Source of the DNA: Geodermatophilus nigrescens
GTDB taxonomy: Bacteria > Actinomycetota > Actinomycetes > Mycobacteriales > Geodermatophilaceae
DNA length: 64,000 nucleotides
Direction of reading: 5' to 3'
NCBI RefSeq assembly: GCF_900129495.1
Contig: NZ_FQVX01000003.1
Coordinates: 868,001 to 932,000 of the forward strand
The notes under the pieces were generated by a model. The model worked only from the letters and a program-made list of their open reading frames with translations, was not told the DNA's origin and ran no database searches. A program made the position numbers and the translations under genes. How positions within the stretch are numbered: the first letter of the stretch is position 1; each line of letters starts with the position of its first letter. Positions 6,998 to 25,678 of the stretch are shown one piece after another.

Positions 6998-7558
6998 TCA
7001 GCTCAGATCTTGGCCGAGTGCCTCGTCGAGGCCGACGGTGGCCATGCCCGACCACGTCTCGTCGACGTGGTGGGCCAGCACCATGAGGTCGCGCAGCTGC
7101 CCCTCCCGGTCGCGGACGTGGTCGCGCAGCAGCGCCTCCCCGGTGAAGCCCAGGCCGGTGAACAGCGCCAGCGCGCTGCCCTGCTCGGCGACCACCTCGA
7201 CGACGAGCTTGGTCAGCCCGTCGCCGACCGCCGTCACCAGGGCGTGCCGGGCCAGCGCCCGTCCGAGGCCCGAGCCGCGGCGGGCGGGGGAGACCACGAG
7301 CCGGACCTCGCCGACGTGCGAGGACCAGCCCGTCAGCCGCCGGATCGCCACGTAGCCGGCGACGTCGCCCCCCGGGTCGTCGCCGTCGACGGTGACGAAC
7401 CGCCGGGCGCTCCCGCCGCCGGACGCCCAGGACCGGACGACGTCGGGGTCGGTCACCTGCTCCTCGATGAAGGTGAGGTCCTCCTCCGGCAGCGACCGGA
7501 AGAACCGCAGCAGCGCGTCGCAGTGCGCCTCGCCGAGCTCGACGACGTCCACGCTCAC
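6998..7558 (-). CDS. GNAT family N-acetyltransferase
   Basis: 186 residues from GTG 7558, which overlaps the phaC stop by 4 nt (GTGA), indicating coupled translation. The acetyl-CoA-binding motif A is RLVVSPARRGSGLGRALA (residues ~96-113), followed by a typical C-terminal GFTGEALLRDHVRDREG segment. The enzyme should transfer acetyl from acetyl-CoA to an amine. The substrate is unknown, although location in a polyhydroxyalkanoate operon hints at a link with carbon or acyl-CoA metabolism. Cytosolic. Confidence 0.85.
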   Translation of the reverse strand: MSVDVVELGEAHCDALLRFFRSLPEEDLTFIEEQVTDPDVVRSWASGGGSARRFVTVDGDDPGGDVAGYVAIRRLTGWSSHVGEVRLVVSPARRGSGLGRALARHALVTAVGDGLTKLVVEVVAEQGSALALFTGLGFTGEALLRDHVRDREGQLRDLMVLAHHVDETWSGMATVGLDEALGQDLS

Positions 7559-19371: not shown

Positions 19372-19457
19372 CGGCTCGTTCCGGTCGGCGTCGTCCGATA
19401 CCGCTGTTCCCCGTCCCGGAGATCGGCAACCCCCCGGTGCCGTCCGCTACCGGCGCG

Positions 19458-20504
19458 TCACGCCAGGGTGGCCGTGTCGATCACGAAGCGGTAGCGCACG
19501 TCGGAGGCCACCACCCGGTCGAAGGCCTCGTCCACGCGGTCCACGCCGATCGTCTCGACCTCCGCGGCGATGCCGTGCGCGGCGCAGAAGTCGAGCATCT
19601 CCTGGGTCTCGCGGATGCCGCCGATGTTGGACGCGGCGTAGGAGAGGCGACGCATGAGCAGCGAGGCGACGTCCAGCGACTGCGGGTGCTCGGGGATCCC
19701 GAGGTTGACCAGCGTGCCGTCCACGTCGAGCAGGGACAGGTACGCGTCGACGTCGACCGACGCGCTGACGGTGTTGAGGACGAGGTCGAACGAGCCCGCC
19801 AGGCGGGCGAAGGTGTCCGGGGCGCTCGTGGCGGCGTAGTGGCCCGCCCCCAGGCGCAGGCCGTCCTCCTGCTTCCGCAGGGACTGGGACAGCACCGTGA
19901 CCTCGGCTCCGAGCGCGGCGGCGACCTGGACGGCCACGTGCCCCAGCCCACCCAGCCCGACGACGGCGACCCGGGTCCCCGGGCCCGCTCCCCAGTGGCG
20001 CAGCGGGGAGTAGACGGTGACGCCCGCGCACAGCAGCGGGGCGGCCACGTCGAGCGCCAGGCCGTCGGGGATGCGCAGGACGAAGTCCTCCGTGACGACG
20101 ATGCCCTCGGCGTAGCCGCCCTGGGTGGGCCGCCCGTCCCGCCCGGTGCTCGAGTAGGTCTCGACGTAGCCCTCGGTGCAGAACTGCTCGTCCCCGCGCC
20201 GGCAGTAGCGGCACTCCCGGCAGGAGTCGACGAGACAGCCGACGCCGACGCGGTCGCCGACGCGGAACCGGCTCACCTCGGCGCCGACCTCGGCCACCAC
20301 CCCGGCGATCTCGTGACCGAGGACGACGGGGTAGCGCGTGGCGCCCCACTCGCTGCGCGCGGTGTGGATGTCGGAGTGGCAGATGCCGACGTACCGGATG
20401 TCGATGCGCACGTCGCGGGGGCCGACGTCCCGCAGGTCGATCGTCGTCGGCGCCAGCGGATCGGTGGGCGACGTGGCGGCGTAGGCGCGGACGGTGGTGG
20501 GCAC
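19458..20504 (-). CDS. Zinc-dependent alcohol dehydrogenase (CAD/YahK type)
   Basis: 348 residues from GTG 20504 (ribosome site ctggaggaccc). Catalytic zinc ligands are in GICHSDIH and GHEIAG. The structural zinc cluster is [15 protein letters not shown]. The cofactor motif is [20 protein letters not shown]. Residues 210-215 ([10 protein letters not shown]) resemble the NADPH-preferring cinnamyl-alcohol-dehydrogenase group. It oxidises or reduces primary alcohols/aldehydes. The gene is divergent from the leader peptide/tauD operon; the 70-nt gap holds both starts. Confidence 0.9.
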
Positions 20505-20561
20505 GGGTCCTCCAGGGGGCGGGACGAGGGCACCCGCGTGTCGCCGGACCCGATCGACCGC

Positions 20562-20567
20562 TACGGT
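20562..20567 (+). promoter_or_regulatory. Putative -10 element of the leader peptide/tauD operon
   Basis: TACGGT followed by 7 nt and the ATG of the leader peptide (20575), so the leader peptide mRNA is probably leaderless. Confidence 0.5.
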
Positions 20568-20574
20568 AATCCCC

Positions 20575-20664
20575 ATGCAGTCGGTCGGGATTGTGCGGTT
20601 GGCGCTCGTCGAGCGCCGGCACGTCGACCTGCTGCGGTGCGCGAGCGCGCTCTGTCGGGCCTGA
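20575..20664 (+). CDS. Leader peptide, sulfur-type attenuator candidate
   Basis: 29 codons from ATG 20575 to TGA 20664. The core [16 protein letters not shown] is the pattern of short actinobacterial leader peptides (RxHVDLxRxxSxxC) that precede sulfur uptake and assimilation genes. Cysteines are at residues 22 and 27, near the end where ribosome stalling would matter. It ends 45 nt before a TauD-type dioxygenase, a sulfur-scavenging enzyme. The peptide probably senses cysteine supply by translation-linked control of the downstream operon. No clear competing hairpins are visible by eye. Confidence 0.72.
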
Positions 20665-20709
20665 GGACCGTCCCCCGTCCCGTCCAGCCGCATCCCCCGG
20701 AGTCCTCGC

Positions 20710-21609
20710 ATGACCCTGCTCGCCGCAGCCCCGACCCAGCCCGCCGACGTCCACGCCGACGTCGCCGCCCTCGAGCTCGAGCGCCTCGAGCCCACCATCG
20801 GCGCCCGCGTCCACGGCCTCGACCTCGCCCGCGCCACCGACGAGCAGGTCCGGGCCGTCCGGGCCGCGCTCGCCGAGTACAAGGTGCTGTTCTTCGCCGG
20901 CCAGCACGACCTGCACCCCGACGGCCAGATCGCGCTGGGCCGCCGGCTCGGCGAGGTCACCGAGTCGCACCCCGTCGTCCCGGGCGTCGACCAGGAGCAC
21001 CCCGAGATCTACGCGCTGGACAGCGCCACCGGCGGGTTCGCCGACATCTGGCACACCGACGTCACCTTCGTCCGCCGGCCCCCGCTCGGGTCGGTGCTGC
21101 GCGCCGTCGTCCTCCCGCCCACCGGTGGCGACACCCAGTGGGCCGACCTGGAGCTCGCCTACCGCTCCCTGTCCGAGCCGGTGCAGCGGCTGGCCGACCA
21201 GCTCGTCGCGGTGCACGACGGCACCCGCGAGTTCGGCTACTACATCGCCCAGCGCGAGGAGCGCACGAAGTGGGAGGGCGAGGAGTACCGCGCCCTCGTC
21301 CCGGTCGCCCACCCGGTCGTCCGCGTGCACCCCGAGACCGGCCGCAAGGGGCTGTTCGTCAACCCGGGCTTCGTGTCGCACATCGAGGGCGTGTCCGACG
21401 CCGAGAGCCGGTACCTCCTCGACCTCTTCTACGCGCACATCACCAAGCCGGAGCACGTCGTCCGGCACCGCTGGTCGGTCGGCGACGTCGTGATGTGGGA
21501 CAACCGCTCGACGGTGCACTACGCCAACCGCGACTACGGCGACCAGCGCCGTGTCATGCACCGCATCACGCTGCGCGGCGACGCCCCGGTCGGTCCCTCC
21601 GCCGGGTGA
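20710..21609 (+). CDS. TauD/TfdA family Fe(II)/2-oxoglutarate dioxygenase
   Basis: 299 residues. The iron-binding facial triad is visible: His and Asp in IWHTDVTF (residues ~117-124) and the distal His in VMHRITLRG near the C-terminus, followed by the 2-oxoglutarate-binding Arg. VDNR-like [12 protein letters not shown] is diagnostic for TauD. The family oxidises taurine, other sulfonates or related substrates to release sulfite. The leader peptide upstream supports a sulfur role. The next gene is a betaine-type ABC transporter, so the substrate may be an N-methylated or quaternary sulfur compound (inference). Confidence 0.87.
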
Positions 21610-21645
21610 CGGCGGGGCACCTCCGCCCAGCACGACCGCCGCCTC

Positions 21646-21680
21646 AGGCGCAGGCTCTTCCCAGAGAGGGGCCTGCGCCT
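21646..21680 (+). terminator. Hairpin between tauD and proX-like gene
   Basis: A 10-bp perfect stem (21646-21655 with 21671-21680) and a 15-nt loop in the 133-nt gap. No T-run. It may attenuate rather than end transcription into the transporter genes. Confidence 0.5.
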
Positions 21681-21742
21681 CGTCGCGCGCGCCTCCCTCC
21701 GCCGCGGCCTCCCGGGCCCGACGACCTCCAGGAAGAGACCCC

Positions 21743-22705
21743 ATGCAGCGCACGACCCTCCGGCCCCGCGCCTCCGCGGTGGCCCTCACCGCCGTCCTGG
21801 CCGCCGCCGTCGCCGGCTGCACGAGCGAGCAGCCCGACTCGGGCGCCGGTTCCGGCAGCGGCGACGGGATCACCGTCCAGACCGCGCAGTTCAGCTGGAC
21901 CGCGGCCGGCCTGACCACCGGCATCCTCGGTGAGATCGCCGCCGACAACCCCGACCTCGGGGTCGCCTCGCTCGCCACCACCCAGCTCGACCCGGCCGCC
22001 GCCTGGGCGGGCGCCCAGCGCGGTGACATCGACCTGCTCACCGAGGTCGCCCTGCCCAACCAGCAGGAGCTCGCCGACTCCGCCGCCGACCGCGTCGAGA
22101 TCGTGTCGGAGACCTACGGGGACGCCTCGCAGGGCTGGTTCGTCCCCGCGTACGCGCTGGAGCCGGGCGGCCCGCTCGAGGGGCTGACCAGCGTCACGCA
22201 GCTCGACGAGTACGCCGACCAGCTCGGGAACAAGTTCTACGACGCCGACCCCGGCTACATCACCACCGAGCAGAACGCCAAGCGCCTCGAGGGCTACGGC
22301 ATCGGGCTCGAGCACGTGGTGTCCAGCGAGGCCGCCGAGCTCGCGCAGCTGGCGAACAGCTACAGCCGCGAGGAGCCGATCGTGCTGTACCTGTACCACC
22401 CGCACGCGGTCTTCGCGCAGTACGACATGGTGCAGCTCGAGGAGCCCACGCCCTACAGCGACGGGTGCCTGACCACCGGCGACGGCGCCTGCGCGATGCC
22501 CTCCTACAGCGCCAACATCGCCGCCAGCGACGAGCTGCGCGAGCAGGCGCCGGCGTTCGTCGACCTGCTGACGGACTTCCGCATCTCCGTCGAGGAGATG
22601 GAGGAGATGCAGAAGCGGGTCGACGTCGACGGCGAGGACGTGGCCGCGGTGGCGCGCGACTGGGTGGACGCGAACGCCGACCAGATCGACGAGTGGATCG
22701 GCTGA
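21743..22705 (+). CDS. Betaine-type ABC transporter substrate-binding lipoprotein (ProX/OpuAC)
   Basis: 320 residues from ATG 21743 (ribosome site aggaaga). The lipobox AVAGC puts the lipidated Cys at 26, followed by a Ser/Gly-rich tether. The mature part is of the OpuAC/ProX type: ITVQTAQFSWTAAGLTTGIL, then DLLTEVALPNQQ, ending DWVDANADQIDEWIG. It should capture a quaternary ammonium-like ligand outside the membrane. The ligand is uncertain: the family covers glycine betaine, proline betaine and choline, and the sulfur betaine ergothioneine in some members. It is followed after one nucleotide by its ATPase. Confidence 0.83.
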   Translation: MQRTTLRPRASAVALTAVLAAAVAGCTSEQPDSGAGSGSGDGITVQTAQFSWTAAGLTTGILGEIAADNPDLGVASLATTQLDPAAAWAGAQRGDIDLLTEVALPNQQELADSAADRVEIVSETYGDASQGWFVPAYALEPGGPLEGLTSVTQLDEYADQLGNKFYDADPGYITTEQNAKRLEGYGIGLEHVVSSEAAELAQLANSYSREEPIVLYLYHPHAVFAQYDMVQLEEPTPYSDGCLTTGDGACAMPSYSANIAASDELREQAPAFVDLLTDFRISVEEMEEMQKRVDVDGEDVAAVARDWVDANADQIDEWIG

Positions 22706-22706
22706 C

Positions 22707-23915
22707 GTGACGGCCCCGGTGCTGCGGGTCACGGGCCTGACGAAGGTCTTCGGCGCGCGGGAGCAGGAGGCGCTGCGGCTGGCCGGCGAGGGGCTCGGGC
22801 GCGACGAGATCCTGCGCCGGACCGGCGCGACGCTCGCCGTGCACGACGTCGGCTTCGCCGTCGAGCGCGGTGAGCTGTTCGTCGTGATGGGCCTGTCGGG
22901 CTCGGGCAAGTCGACGCTGGTGCGGCTGCTCAACCGGCTGATCGAGCCGAGCGCCGGCACCGTCGAGGTCGAGGGCCGCGACCTGCGCGCGCTCGACGAC
23001 GCCGAGCTCCGGACGGTGCGCAACGAGAAGATCAGCATGGTCTTCCAGCACTTCGCGCTGCTGCCGCACCGGACGGTCCGGGAGAACGCCGCCTACGCGC
23101 TCAAGGTCCGCGGGGCGCCCGCGGCCGTGCAGCGCGAGCGCGCGGACTGGGCGCTGGAGACCGTCGGCCTCATCGACCGCGCCGGTGCCCGGCCCGAGGA
23201 GCTCTCCGGTGGCATGCGGCAGCGGGTCGGGCTGGCCCGGGCGCTGGCGGCCGACTCGGAGGTGCTGCTCATGGACGAGCCGTTCTCCGCCCTCGACCCG
23301 CTGATCCGCCGGGACATGCAGGACCTGCTCGAGCGGCTGCAGTCGGAGCTGGCCAAGACGATCGTGTTCATCACGCACGACCTCAACGAGGCCATGCGGC
23401 TCGGTGACCGGATCCTGATGCTCAAGGACGGCCGCACCGTCCAGCTGGGCACCGGTCCGGAGATCATCTCCGCGCCCGCGGACGACTACGTCGCCGACTT
23501 CACCTCCGACGTCGACCGGACCCGGGTGCTGACCGCCGGCGACCTGCTGCGCGAGCCACGGATGACCGCCCGGCTCGGCGACCCGCCGGGGGAGGTGCTG
23601 CGGCGGCTGGGCACCGCGGAGGCCAACGGCGTCTACGTCCTCGACGGCGACCGGCGGGTGGCCGGCGTCGCCCGGGACGACCTGCTGGCCCGCGCCGTGC
23701 AGGAGGGCCGCGACGCGCTCGGCCCCCGCGAGCTCGTCCCCGACTACGCGACGATCGGCGCCGACCGGCCCGTCGTGGACTTCGTGCACCTGGTCGGGCG
23801 GCACACGGTGCCCCTCGGCGTCCTCGACGACGACGGCCGGCTGCTCGGCGTCGTCCCGCGGGCCGCGGTGCTCGATGCCCTGTCGGCCGTCCCGGCCCGG
23901 GGGAGGCGGTCCTGA
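22707..23915 (+). CDS. Betaine-type ABC transporter ATP-binding protein with CBS region (ProV/OpuAA)
   Basis: 402 residues from GTG 22707. The extended N-terminus typical of ProV (EQEALRLAGEGLGRDEILRR) comes before Walker A GLSGSGKST. Signature LSGGMRQRVGLARAL and Walker B VLLMDEPFSALDP follow. Residues ~265-395 form a tandem CBS-like region (MTARLGDPPGEVLRR, DRPVVDFVHLVGRHTV), which in OpuA senses ionic strength or cyclic dinucleotides. The stop overlaps the permease start by one nucleotide. Confidence 0.88.
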   Translation: MTAPVLRVTGLTKVFGAREQEALRLAGEGLGRDEILRRTGATLAVHDVGFAVERGELFVVMGLSGSGKSTLVRLLNRLIEPSAGTVEVEGRDLRALDDAELRTVRNEKISMVFQHFALLPHRTVRENAAYALKVRGAPAAVQRERADWALETVGLIDRAGARPEELSGGMRQRVGLARALAADSEVLLMDEPFSALDPLIRRDMQDLLERLQSELAKTIVFITHDLNEAMRLGDRILMLKDGRTVQLGTGPEIISAPADDYVADFTSDVDRTRVLTAGDLLREPRMTARLGDPPGEVLRRLGTAEANGVYVLDGDRRVAGVARDDLLARAVQEGRDALGPRELVPDYATIGADRPVVDFVHLVGRHTVPLGVLDDDGRLLGVVPRAAVLDALSAVPARGRRS

Positions 23916-24862
23916 TGCCGCACGTCCCGCTCGGCCGGTGGGTGTCGGACCTCATCGACTGGCTGCTGGCCACGGTGCCGTGGCTCTTCGACGCCGTCTC
24001 GGCGGTCATGTCGGCGCTCGTCGAGGGCCTGACCGACCTGCTGGTCACCCCGCCGCCGGTGGTCTGGATCGTCGTCTTCGCCGTCGTCGCGCTGCTCCTG
24101 CGCGGACCCTGGCTGGCGCTCTACACCGTGCTGGCGTTCCTCCTGGTGGTGTCGCTCGAGCTGTGGGCCGAGACGATGCAGACCCTGGCGCTGGTCCTCG
24201 TCGCGGCGGTCATCGCGGCGGCGATCGGGGTCCCGCTGGGCATCCTCGCGGCCCGCAACCGTGCGGTGAGCGTCGTCGTCCGGCCGGTCCTGGACTTCAT
24301 GCAGACGACGCCGGTCTTCGTCTACCTGATCCCCGCCGTCTTCTTCTTCGGCGTCGGGGTGGTGCCGGGCGTGGTGGCCACGATCCTGTTCGCCATCCCA
24401 CCCGGGGTCCGGCTGACCGAGCTCGGCATCCGGCAGGTCGACCGCGAGGTCGTCGAGGCCGCGCGGGCGTTCGGCGCCCGGCCGGGGCAGGTGCTGCGCG
24501 AGGTGCAGCTGCCGCTGGCCCTGCCGTCGATCATGGCGGGCGTCAACCAGGTGATCATGCTGGCGCTGTCGATGGTGGTCACCGCGGGCCTGCTCGGGGC
24601 CGCGGGGCTCGGCGCGGTGGTGGTGCGGGCGGTGACCCAGCTCGACGTCGCCGCCGGCTTCGAGGGCGGCCTCGCCGTCGTGCTGCTGGCGATCTTCCTC
24701 GACCGGCTGACCGGGGCGTTCGGGCAGCGGGCCGCGCTGTCGCGCTTCCGCGCGGCGCGGGCGCAGCGCAGCCTGCGCGACCGGGAGCCGGCGGCGCAGG
24801 CGCCCGTCACGGGGGCCGCTCCGGCGGCCTCCCCGGCGCTGGAGACGGCGCCGGACCGCTGA
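23915..24862 (+). CDS. Betaine-type ABC transporter permease (ProW)
   Basis: 315 residues with about seven transmembrane helices. The EAA loop is EAARAFGARPGQVLREVQLP (residues ~183-202) followed by LALPSIMAGVNQVIMLALS, the ProW/OpuAB hallmark. The early YTVLAFLLVVSLELWAETMQ segment is also typical. It forms the membrane channel for the two preceding gene products. The C-terminal 40 residues are Ala/Arg-rich. A strong hairpin (24889-24926) closes the operon. Confidence 0.88.
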   Translation: MPHVPLGRWVSDLIDWLLATVPWLFDAVSAVMSALVEGLTDLLVTPPPVVWIVVFAVVALLLRGPWLALYTVLAFLLVVSLELWAETMQTLALVLVAAVIAAAIGVPLGILAARNRAVSVVVRPVLDFMQTTPVFVYLIPAVFFFGVGVVPGVVATILFAIPPGVRLTELGIRQVDREVVEAARAFGARPGQVLREVQLPLALPSIMAGVNQVIMLALSMVVTAGLLGAAGLGAVVVRAVTQLDVAAGFEGGLAVVLLAIFLDRLTGAFGQRAALSRFRAARAQRSLRDREPAAQAPVTGAAPAASPALETAPDR

Positions 24863-24888
24863 CGCGGTCGCCGCGGAGACCCGGAACC

Positions 24889-24926
24889 GAGAACGGCCCG
24901 GACGGAGGACCGTCCGGGCCGTTCTC
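24889..24926. terminator. Hairpin terminator, host copy (proW / former tRNA-Arg terminator)
   Basis: A 17-bp perfect stem (24889-24905 with 24910-24926) and a 4-nt loop. It ends the proW operon and lies next to the displaced tRNA-Arg 3' end, so on the minus strand it was probably the original tRNA terminator. The inner 32 nt are repeated at 32415-32446 with one loop change. Confidence 0.75.
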
Positions 24927-24932
24927 GCGTGG

Positions 24933-24978
24933 GTGCCCCCGGCAGGATTCGAACCTGCGCACCCGCCTCCGGAGGGCG
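24933..24978. repeat. Left attachment site (displaced tRNA-Arg 3' half)
   Basis: 46 bp identical to 32478-32523. It contains the anticodon loop, T arm and acceptor strand of tRNA-Arg but no 5' half, so it is not a functional tRNA gene. Confidence 0.85.
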
Positions 24979-25082
24979 TCCGGGGGGCCTTGTCTACCTC
25001 GCTAGGTACCGCGGATCTGGCTGCTGAGCAGCGCATATGCGGTTGGTCGTTACTGGTCGCAAGGGGCGGTTGCGGGCCGTTC

Positions 25083-25111
25083 TGCGGACTTCCTGCGGAC
25101 TCCCTGCGGAC
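25083..25111 (+). repeat. Arm-type integrase site candidates, left end
   Basis: Three copies of TGCGGAC at 25083, 25094 and 25105, spaced exactly 11 bp. A further TGCGGAC is at 25171 and a CGCGGAC variant at 25181. The same heptamer with the same 11-bp spacing occurs at the other end of the element (32387 and 32398). Confidence 0.6.
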
Positions 25112-25195
25112 CGTGAATCCTGGTGCTGGCGCCCGACAGTCGAGTGGTCCACGTCCAGCGGGCAGAGGCCTGCGGACTGGCGCGGACTAGCCGGG

Positions 25196-25678
25196 CTACC
25201 AGGGTGTCCTCGCACGGCGCTCGACCGCCTCCATGACGCCCCGGAGGACGGGAGCGAGCACGGCGAGGTCGCGGTCGTAGACGCGCCCGTCGTCGACCTG
25301 TGCAGCGAACTCGCTGAGCAGTCCCAGCCAATCTCGCCGCGTCGGGATGCAGGGCACACGGACCTCCACGCGGCGCTCGACGACCTCGATCGCTGATCGT
25401 CCGGATGCCGCCGCGCGGCCCTGCTCCCAGGCTCGGCGTCGGCACCCGACTGAGCACCACTTTGGTAAGGGACCCCGGCACCCCGGCGTGATGGCGGCGC
25501 CGCACCACGCGCAAGACACCGCGGCCGCACGTCGTGCGGGGCCCTGAGCGATAGCGCCGGCCGGTGTTGGTGGGCCGGCAACCTGCTCGCTGTCGTGTCT
25601 TCGGAGCGCCTGCGCTCGTCGCCGCTTCTCGGTCTGCAGCCGACGATTGCGGTCGCTGTCGCCCTTCTCACCCGCCAT
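25196..25678 (-). CDS. Zinc-finger-like protein of the element
   Basis: 160 residues from ATG 25678 (the frame is open to 25723; the start is uncertain). A basic N-terminus (DRNRRLQTEKRRRAQALRR) precedes a four-cysteine finger, C56-x2-C59 (SCAWCGAAI) and C75-x3-C79 (KWCSVGCRRRAWEQ). The C-terminal half (RDLAVLAPVLRGVMEAVERR) is helical. Proteins with this SCAWCG...WCSxxCRRRAWEQ pattern are common on actinobacterial mobile elements, but I know no function for them. Nucleic-acid binding is an inference from the finger and charge. Confidence 0.62.
   Translation of the reverse strand: MAGEKGDSDRNRRLQTEKRRRAQALRRHDSEQVAGPPTPAGAIAQGPARRAAAVSCAWCGAAITPGCRGPLPKWCSVGCRRRAWEQGRAAASGRSAIEVVERRVEVRVPCIPTRRDWLGLLSEFAAQVDDGRVYDRDLAVLAPVLRGVMEAVERRARTPW

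Follow-up and report, generated by a model that had tools for sequence, protein, structure and literature searches.

What is a short, cysteine-bearing reading frame doing in front of a dioxygenase gene and a transporter of the betaine and choline type? The question is raised by a locus of Geodermatophilus nigrescens (RefSeq assembly GCF_900129495.1), in a 64,000-nucleotide stretch of contig NZ_FQVX01000003.1 (positions 868,001 to 932,000 of the forward strand) that is called the window here. On the plus strand of the window, a 29-codon frame precedes tauD and genes for a binding protein, an ATPase, and a permease. An initial annotation had called the frame a sulfur-type leader peptide and had suggested that the genes behind it scavenge a sulfur-containing betaine or a methylated sulfonate. 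We found that the leader is a true member of NF042934, a known leader peptide family of Actinomycetes, and that the conserved cysteine of this family is encoded by UGU in nearly all leaders read. This codon rule is new here, and of all the results it was the least expected. The operon is a conserved variant and is also new; the kind of leader was already known. We favor the reading that a cysteine-type leader switches on an organosulfur scavenging operon, which is probably, although not securely, correct.

The leader gene occupies positions 20575 to 20664 (29 codons and a stop). The hexamer TACGGT (20562 to 20567) lies 7 nucleotides 5' of its ATG, and the tauD ATG (20710) follows the leader stop after a gap of 45 nucleotides, details of the initial annotation that were exact when the sequence was read again. 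TACGGT-N7-ATG is the arrangement expected of a leaderless transcript and predicts a transcription start at this place. Nineteen leader loci were aligned, comprising 17 tauD loci of the Geodermatophilaceae, one of Blastococcus endophyticus (L070), and one of a Frankineae metagenome-assembled genome (L078). The leader peptide, the T, A, G, and T of the -10-like element (TA..GT), and a spacing of 43 to 52 nucleotides to tauD were kept in 19 of 19.

In a profile search, the peptide scored 30.6 bits against NF042934 ("putative leader peptide", of the type cis_reg_atten; curated cut-off, 27). A six-frame search of its own genome (4.74 Mb, 11 contigs) recovered it at an E value of 2.4e-6, among 12 matches at E <= 10, of which 4 were above the cut-off and 7 lay at E <= 0.06. 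The model matched 105 of 108 genomes of the Geodermatophilaceae and none of 14 control genomes at E <= 1e-4, and 120 of 197 genomes of the class Actinomycetes at E <= 1e-5. All 12 matching genomes in a phylum sample of 198 came from the same class, so the family range is restricted to the Actinomycetes. Among the six other leaders of the own genome at E <= 0.06, three precede genes for a nitrite/sulfite reductase, a TauE/SafE permease, and a cysteine dioxygenase. More broadly, 7 of 10 scanned genes behind family leaders carry a sulfur-linked domain (NIR_SIR, TauE, CbiX, CDO_I, rhodanese, SsuD-like luciferase, or a MetN-like ATPase with NIL). These data support the frame as a sulfur-type leader, as first proposed. 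The leader shares with NF042934, and with the Ms4527A and Ms5788A leader families, its late cysteine, its short frame before sulfur genes, and its Actinomycete range; the Ms4527A and Ms5788A models gave 21.8 and 12.7 bits, respectively, on this leader, both far under their cut-offs of 45. Where this locus departs from other NF042934 members is in having a dioxygenase and an OpuAC-type transporter downstream. As a separate observation, family leader L003 (own genome, C3:604867-604923) stands before the cysteine dioxygenase gene, whose product would consume cysteine, an odd target for a cysteine-starvation switch.

The two cysteine codons of the leader are both fixed, each as a different codon. 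Cys22 (20638 to 20640) is TGC and Cys27 (20653 to 20655), the family-conserved cysteine, is TGT at every one of the 19 tauD loci; nine genes of the window together use TGC 20 times and TGT once. Leaders were read from at most the best 30 loci each of the family, class, and phylum searches, which gave 36 from the Geodermatophilaceae, seven of them belonging to the own genome, and a further 53 drawn from at least 11 other families. The conserved cysteine was assigned by a script motif, and a gene family can contribute more than one leader; Fisher values are therefore nominal. In the first set this cysteine was TGT in 34 leaders, the exceptions being L001 and L178; the remaining cysteine codons of these leaders were TGC in 18 of 18, and the 35 genes behind them held 94 TGC and 5 TGT. 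In the second set it was TGT in 48 leaders, with 74 TGC and 27 TGT at their other cysteine codons and 91 TGC and 11 TGT in the genes behind them. All five exceptions in the second set belong to a single family, f8, whose leaders carry cysteine runs (six leaders with four to seven tail cysteines, TGC being the assigned codon in five), and 47 of 47 leaders were TGT when the six were left out. Overall, the conserved cysteine was UGU in 81 of 83 leaders without f8 and in 82 of 89 with the six, mostly polycysteine, f8 leaders. Genes beside the leaders favor UGC 8- to 20-fold over UGU, and the third base at 16 neighboring leader codon positions is G or C in 77 to 100%. A literature search of titles and opening abstracts found no statement of such a rule. 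Neither UGU nor TGT appears in the main text of PMC1262725, and UGC is dominant in a proteobacterial cysS leader according to PMC8632094.

A fixed UGU could also arise from a need for a particular RNA sequence or structure at that place and not from codon decoding. The base after UGU is C in 70 of the 83 leaders, as such a need might produce, but this base is not constant (5 of 19 tauD leaders have A, and T, A, or G occurs in others), the spacers and downstream genes differ among leaders, and the invariable UGC at the other cysteine codons of the Geodermatophilaceae leaders also speaks against it. We therefore regard this explanation as rather unlikely. For the decoding explanation, the UGU codon offers a handle on how a leader with one or two cysteine codons can sense cysteine. 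In its most specific form, which we put forward only tentatively, the family would be a one-codon cysteine gauge, kept at UGU throughout the Actinomycetes since this codon, wobble-read by tRNA-Cys(GCA), would be decoded slowly and make the stall respond to slight losses of Cys-tRNA. At this locus the gauge would control a sulfonate or sulfate-ester dioxygenase and a remodeled choline-type importer that supplies it, possibly for a quaternary amine bearing sulfate or sulfonate, like choline-O-sulfate or trimethyltaurine. If decoding is what fixes the codon, a one-base change that is neutral for the amino acid should alter the response, and the same rule should hold for leaders across a large part of the Actinomycetes, given the 120 of 197 class genomes with a match.

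Orthologs of the binding protein at 82 to 91% were found in 18 other genomes among 112 of the Geodermatophilaceae; any match at E <= 1e-10 occurred in 25 of the 112, and those beyond the orthologs were at 25 to 30% identity. All 19 genomes that carry this binding protein keep the order binding protein-ATPase-permease, and in 17 of them tauD stands ahead of it. Close tauD genes (84% or more) were likewise present in 19 genomes of the family, 17 times beside the binding protein gene. In the other two genomes, G062 and G099, no binding protein gene was found within 14.5 kb around tauD, and the leader was present. The leader was found at 17 of 17 close tauD loci with upstream DNA, the other two (G084 and G086) being cut by contig ends. 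No leader was found upstream of the transporter in G051 and G003, which have lost tauD. Because the leader is kept in two genomes without an adjoining transporter and was not found in two without tauD, we conclude that it travels with tauD and not with the transporter. The whole five-part unit also occurs in L070 and L078, and the pairing of leader, tauD, and transporter on which the initial annotation had remarked is thus a conserved one.

Outside the Geodermatophilaceae the binding protein is rare. At E <= 1e-30, searches of 150 genomes of the order and 396 of the phylum found it in 2 and 1, respectively, the own genome counted in both, and a profile search of 296 class genomes turned up distant relatives and nothing closer (best other E, 1.2e-21); these genome sets are samples, and the order, phylum, and class searches score few candidates per genome. 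Two Pseudokineococcus loci hold a relative at 58 to 59%, and tauD and the partner genes were not detected in the DNA examined there. No description of a tauD gene paired with an OpuAC-type transporter was found among titles and opening abstracts. The sequence ahead of the transporter in G051 resembles a decayed tauD by eye; such an apparent decayed tauD, with no leader found and intact transporter genes behind, was noted at L057 (about 7135 to 7535) of Geodermatophilus pulveris. In G087 (L055, 6486 to 7383), tauD is split over two frames, recovered as two tblastn pieces, through either a frameshift or a sequencing error.

The tauD gene (20710 to 21609) follows a GGAG Shine-Dalgarno site (20699 to 20702) that a script located ahead of tauD at all 19 loci. 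Its product matches PF02668 at 217.5 bits, and H115, D117, H270, and R281 align with the iron ligands H99, D101, and H255 and the 2-oxoglutarate arginine R266 of Escherichia coli TauD, which upholds its assignment to the TauD/TfdA family of Fe(II)/2-oxoglutarate dioxygenases. Against the taurine dioxygenase model NF007104, the protein scored 284.7 bits, under the cut-off of 313. The sulfonate anchors H70 and R270 of TauD are kept as H87 and R285. In contrast, Y73, D94, N95, and S158, which lie around the taurine amine in the E. coli enzyme, are replaced by Val, Phe, Ala, and Glu, and the TauABC transporter of E. coli by one of the OpuAC type. PMC9304159 gives H70 and R270 as substrate binding and D94, N95, and S158 as contacts to the taurine amine. 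Val and Ala also stand at the Y73 and N95 positions in AtsK, the alkylsulfatase dioxygenase of Pseudomonas putida; the window enzyme scores slightly higher against TauDs (221.7 and 220 bits) than against AtsK (209.9 bits).

Five genomes hold tauD genes of 71 to 76% identity whose pockets differ little or not at all from that of the window enzyme: position 73 holds Val or Ile, position 94 Phe, and position 95 Ala or Gly. In four of these genomes, the tauD gene adjoins genes of the TauABC/SsuABC type (two clusters were scanned with NCBIfam models), and in G060 and G109 an alkanesulfonate monooxygenase-like gene is also adjacent. The shared altered pocket and these neighbors together point to a sulfonate or sulfate ester as the substrate and suggest that, in the Geodermatophilus-type operon, one transporter has taken the place of another. 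By this comparison of sequences, the locus has the look of an operon for scavenging sulfonates or sulfate esters in which the transporter was swapped. At E <= 1e-25, no SsuA-family binding protein was found in the own genome. The idea that an SsuA-type protein and the operon exclude each other was not clearly borne out, since an SsuA-type protein was present at that threshold in at least 7 of the 19 genomes that carry the binding protein of the operon.

The transporter is a betaine/choline-type ATP-binding cassette (ABC) importer. It consists of a lipoprotein binding protein of the OpuAC/ChoX fold (21743 to 22705; PF04069, 149.2 bits), an ATPase of the ProV/ChoV type with a CBS domain (22707 to 23915; PF00005 and PF00571), and a permease of the ChoW/ProW type (23915 to 24862; PF00528); the ATPase stop and the permease start share one base. 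The initial annotation had assigned the ProXVW type. The ATPase exceeds the cut-off of the broad proV subfamily TIGR01186 (366.8 versus 326.6 bits), so the general class held, whereas for the binding protein and the permease the best-scoring models were those of choline transport (ChoXWV), ahead of ProXVW. Neither protein attained a curated cut-off: the binding protein reached 67.4 bits against TIGR03414 (cut-off, 379.05) and 42.7 against PRK11119 (cut-off, 215), and the permease reached 325 bits against TIGR03416 (cut-off, 363).

A structure model of the binding protein built from 45 diverse sequences had a pLDDT of 87.8; one based on 19 near-identical sequences reached only 45.8. The model matched TmoX (trimethylamine N-oxide; Z 27.8), DmpX (dimethylsulfoniopropionate; 27.6), ProX (26.5), ChoX (26.3), and OpuAC (in the 26 to 28 range), where rows within 1 Z unit of each other count as tied; sequence identity in the TmoX, DmpX, ProX, and ChoX rows was 18 to 22%. 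Structures of EgtU, the ergothioneine importer, ranked below these at Z of about 22, and on this modeled fold an ergothioneine-like ligand, offered as an example at first, is not favored. The window protein shares its fold with the binding proteins of the ChoXWV, ProXVW, and OpuA importers and with TmoX and DmpX, but not their cage. Read against OpuAC, it keeps W52, has A103 and Y218 at the other two tryptophan sites, and has Q108 in place of the carboxylate histidine, all invariant across the 19 sequences; at these sites the alignment shows W, W, W, and His in canonical relatives. It also differs from these systems in being coupled to tauD and a sulfur leader. As defined in PMC10087775, the ProX/ChoX cage has three or four aromatics and a charged residue for the polar end, and the classic cage is absent from the window protein at the known positions. 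The invariant aromatics W132 and Y172 could, judging from the residues, rebuild a cage. In alignment A2, four loci came from an OpuAC-family search, and most other OpuAC-family proteins there were too distant. A separate OpuAC-type lineage was seen in L037, L039, L041, L171, and similar loci, with the motifs NPWVGYEA, ENWG.HEDL, and YFY.PQW, unlike betaine binders and the window protein.

These comparisons bear on two other accounts of the substrate. In the first, the importer, ChoXWV-like, and the dioxygenase, with its AtsK-like pocket, would handle a compound that combines a quaternary amine with oxidized sulfur, such as trimethyltaurine or choline-O-sulfate, cleavage of the latter giving betaine aldehyde and sulfate. 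The choline models preferred by permease and binding protein, the ChoX, TmoX, and DmpX structure matches, the Val and Ala at the TauD Y73 and N95 sites, and the retention of W52 together with W132, Y172, and Y218 as invariant aromatics in 19 of 19 would all fit. However, Ala replaces the tryptophan of the LPN motif, Gln replaces the carboxylate histidine, the acidic residues that follow W52 have been lost, and the tauD genes with the same pocket adjoin TauABC/SsuABC-type transporters and not quaternary-amine importers. We consider such a substrate unlikely. The scavenging of a quaternary or methylated sulfonate proposed at the outset therefore stands in part: the sulfur leader, the TauD enzyme, the betaine/choline-type transporter, and their conserved pairing agree with it, and the ligand class does not follow, given A103, Y218, and Q108 at the cage sites.

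In the second account, the transporter serves to import glycine betaine or choline as osmolytes, as such systems ordinarily do, and came to lie behind tauD by chance; a sulfur response would concern tauD only. Its OpuAC fold and its ProV-type ATPase with a CBS domain are those of such importers, the two kinds of gene occur apart (transporter without tauD in two genomes, tauD without transporter in two), and a conserved hairpin separates tauD from the transporter genes. A loss of cage residues need not exclude betaine, either, as ProX proteins with only two tryptophans in the predicted pocket bind glycine betaine, according to PMC10087775. Against chance, the order is kept in 17 of 19 genomes plus L070 and L078, the altered cage and carboxylate residues are fixed in all 19, and the binding protein forms a lineage of its own that is rare in the order and phylum searches. 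On balance, an osmolyte importer seems improbable.

The reading that we prefer remains a cysteine-responsive switch for organosulfur scavenging, and it has support from the family membership and conservation of the leader, its link to tauD, the operon order, and the fold and residue comparisons. In this mechanism, the transcript would begin at or near the leader ATG, and a ribosome on the 29 codons would slow or stall at the late cysteine codons, UGU27 above all, when Cys-tRNA is short. The stall would raise expression of tauD, and of the transporter as far as transcription reads through, either by unmasking the Shine-Dalgarno site or by way of Rho. The importer would take up an organosulfonate or sulfate ester, and the dioxygenase would hydroxylate the carbon that bears the sulfur or sulfate, releasing sulfite (or sulfate) for assimilation; in the own genome, the nitrite/sulfite reductase gene sits behind a leader of the same family. 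We infer the leaderless start, the stalling, the cysteine response, the substrate, and the direction of control. If correct, this reading links an orphan pair of dioxygenase and transporter, found in Actinomycetes that live in deserts and on rock, to sulfur starvation and poses a concrete, testable substrate question.

Several observations weigh against this reading. Three of the six other own-genome leaders precede genes for NAD_binding_9, DUF4395, and GNAT proteins, which have no known sulfur role, and a leader motif search found the leader at none of the five tauD genes of 71 to 76% identity. The leader has only two separated cysteine codons, unlike the mycobacterial polycysteine leaders. 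CUCUG (Leu26-Cys27) is invariantly complementary to CGGAG at the tauD site, and RNAalifold pairs the two, yet there was no covariation: 97.9% of cells were paired, versus 25 to 59% when the segments were slid, with no two-sided changes. Single-sequence folding gave this pairing a mean probability of 0.007, and accessibility of the Shine-Dalgarno site was equal in the free RNA (0.200) and with a stalled ribosome (0.203). A hairpin over the leader stop codon did not exceed spacer shuffles (mean z, -0.16). Finally, the hairpin at 21646 to 21680, between tauD and the binding protein gene, could uncouple the transporter from the leader.

An anti-Shine-Dalgarno hairpin masking the tauD site is accordingly not supported, with no covariation, no folding support, and no gain of access on stalling. 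A GAGGAC/GTCCTC pairing of the window was not kept by the relatives' spacers by eye, and a hairpin inside the leader (columns 53 to 69) was no better than shuffles (346 of 500). Canestrari et al. reportedly described polycysteine leaderless attenuators of mycobacteria in 2020. These resemble the locus in their short frame, late cysteine codons, and downstream sulfur genes, and probably also in a leaderless transcript. They differ in carrying a cysteine run where the leader here has Cys22 and Cys27 only, and in that a stalled ribosome unmasks the ribosome-binding site, an unmasking that is not supported at this locus. The leader may instead work by Rho-dependent or other transcription attenuation, without acting through tauD translation. 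Neither a conserved masking structure nor a terminator-like site was found, and the leader-tauD spacer is C-rich, a composition that suits Rho. Moreover, Rho was proposed for mycobacterial cys leaders by Seliverstov et al. (PMC1262725), but for the cysteine genes of Mycobacterium smegmatis translation attenuation has been reported (PMC13236596, citing Canestrari 2020). We regard transcription attenuation as somewhat less likely than not.

The 21646 to 21680 hairpin lacks a T-run, and its arms are conserved in 15 of 16 loci. The alignment supports it well: 93.1% of its cells were paired, with two-sided changes at 6 of 18 pairs versus 2.6 in shuffles; it is lost in L078. This hairpin may tune how much enzyme is made relative to transporter, or it may stabilize the RNA.

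A generic sigma-70 scan found no consensus promoter at the locus, an intrinsic terminator scan called none there, and an Rfam scan of 19400 to 25300 gave three matches at E <= 1, all under their gathering scores. The divergent aldehyde reductase-like gene at 19458 to 20504 was rejected as a part of the operon: it adjoins tauD in the window and L047, lies 2.2 kb upstream in L070, and was not detected at that identity in the stretches adjoining other tauD loci. Just 3' of the operon, on the minus strand, 24934 to 24988 gave a tRNA-like match of 21.5 bits (gathering score, 29). The kilobases that follow resemble an integrated element by eye, with a recombinase-like frame near 29.6 kb.

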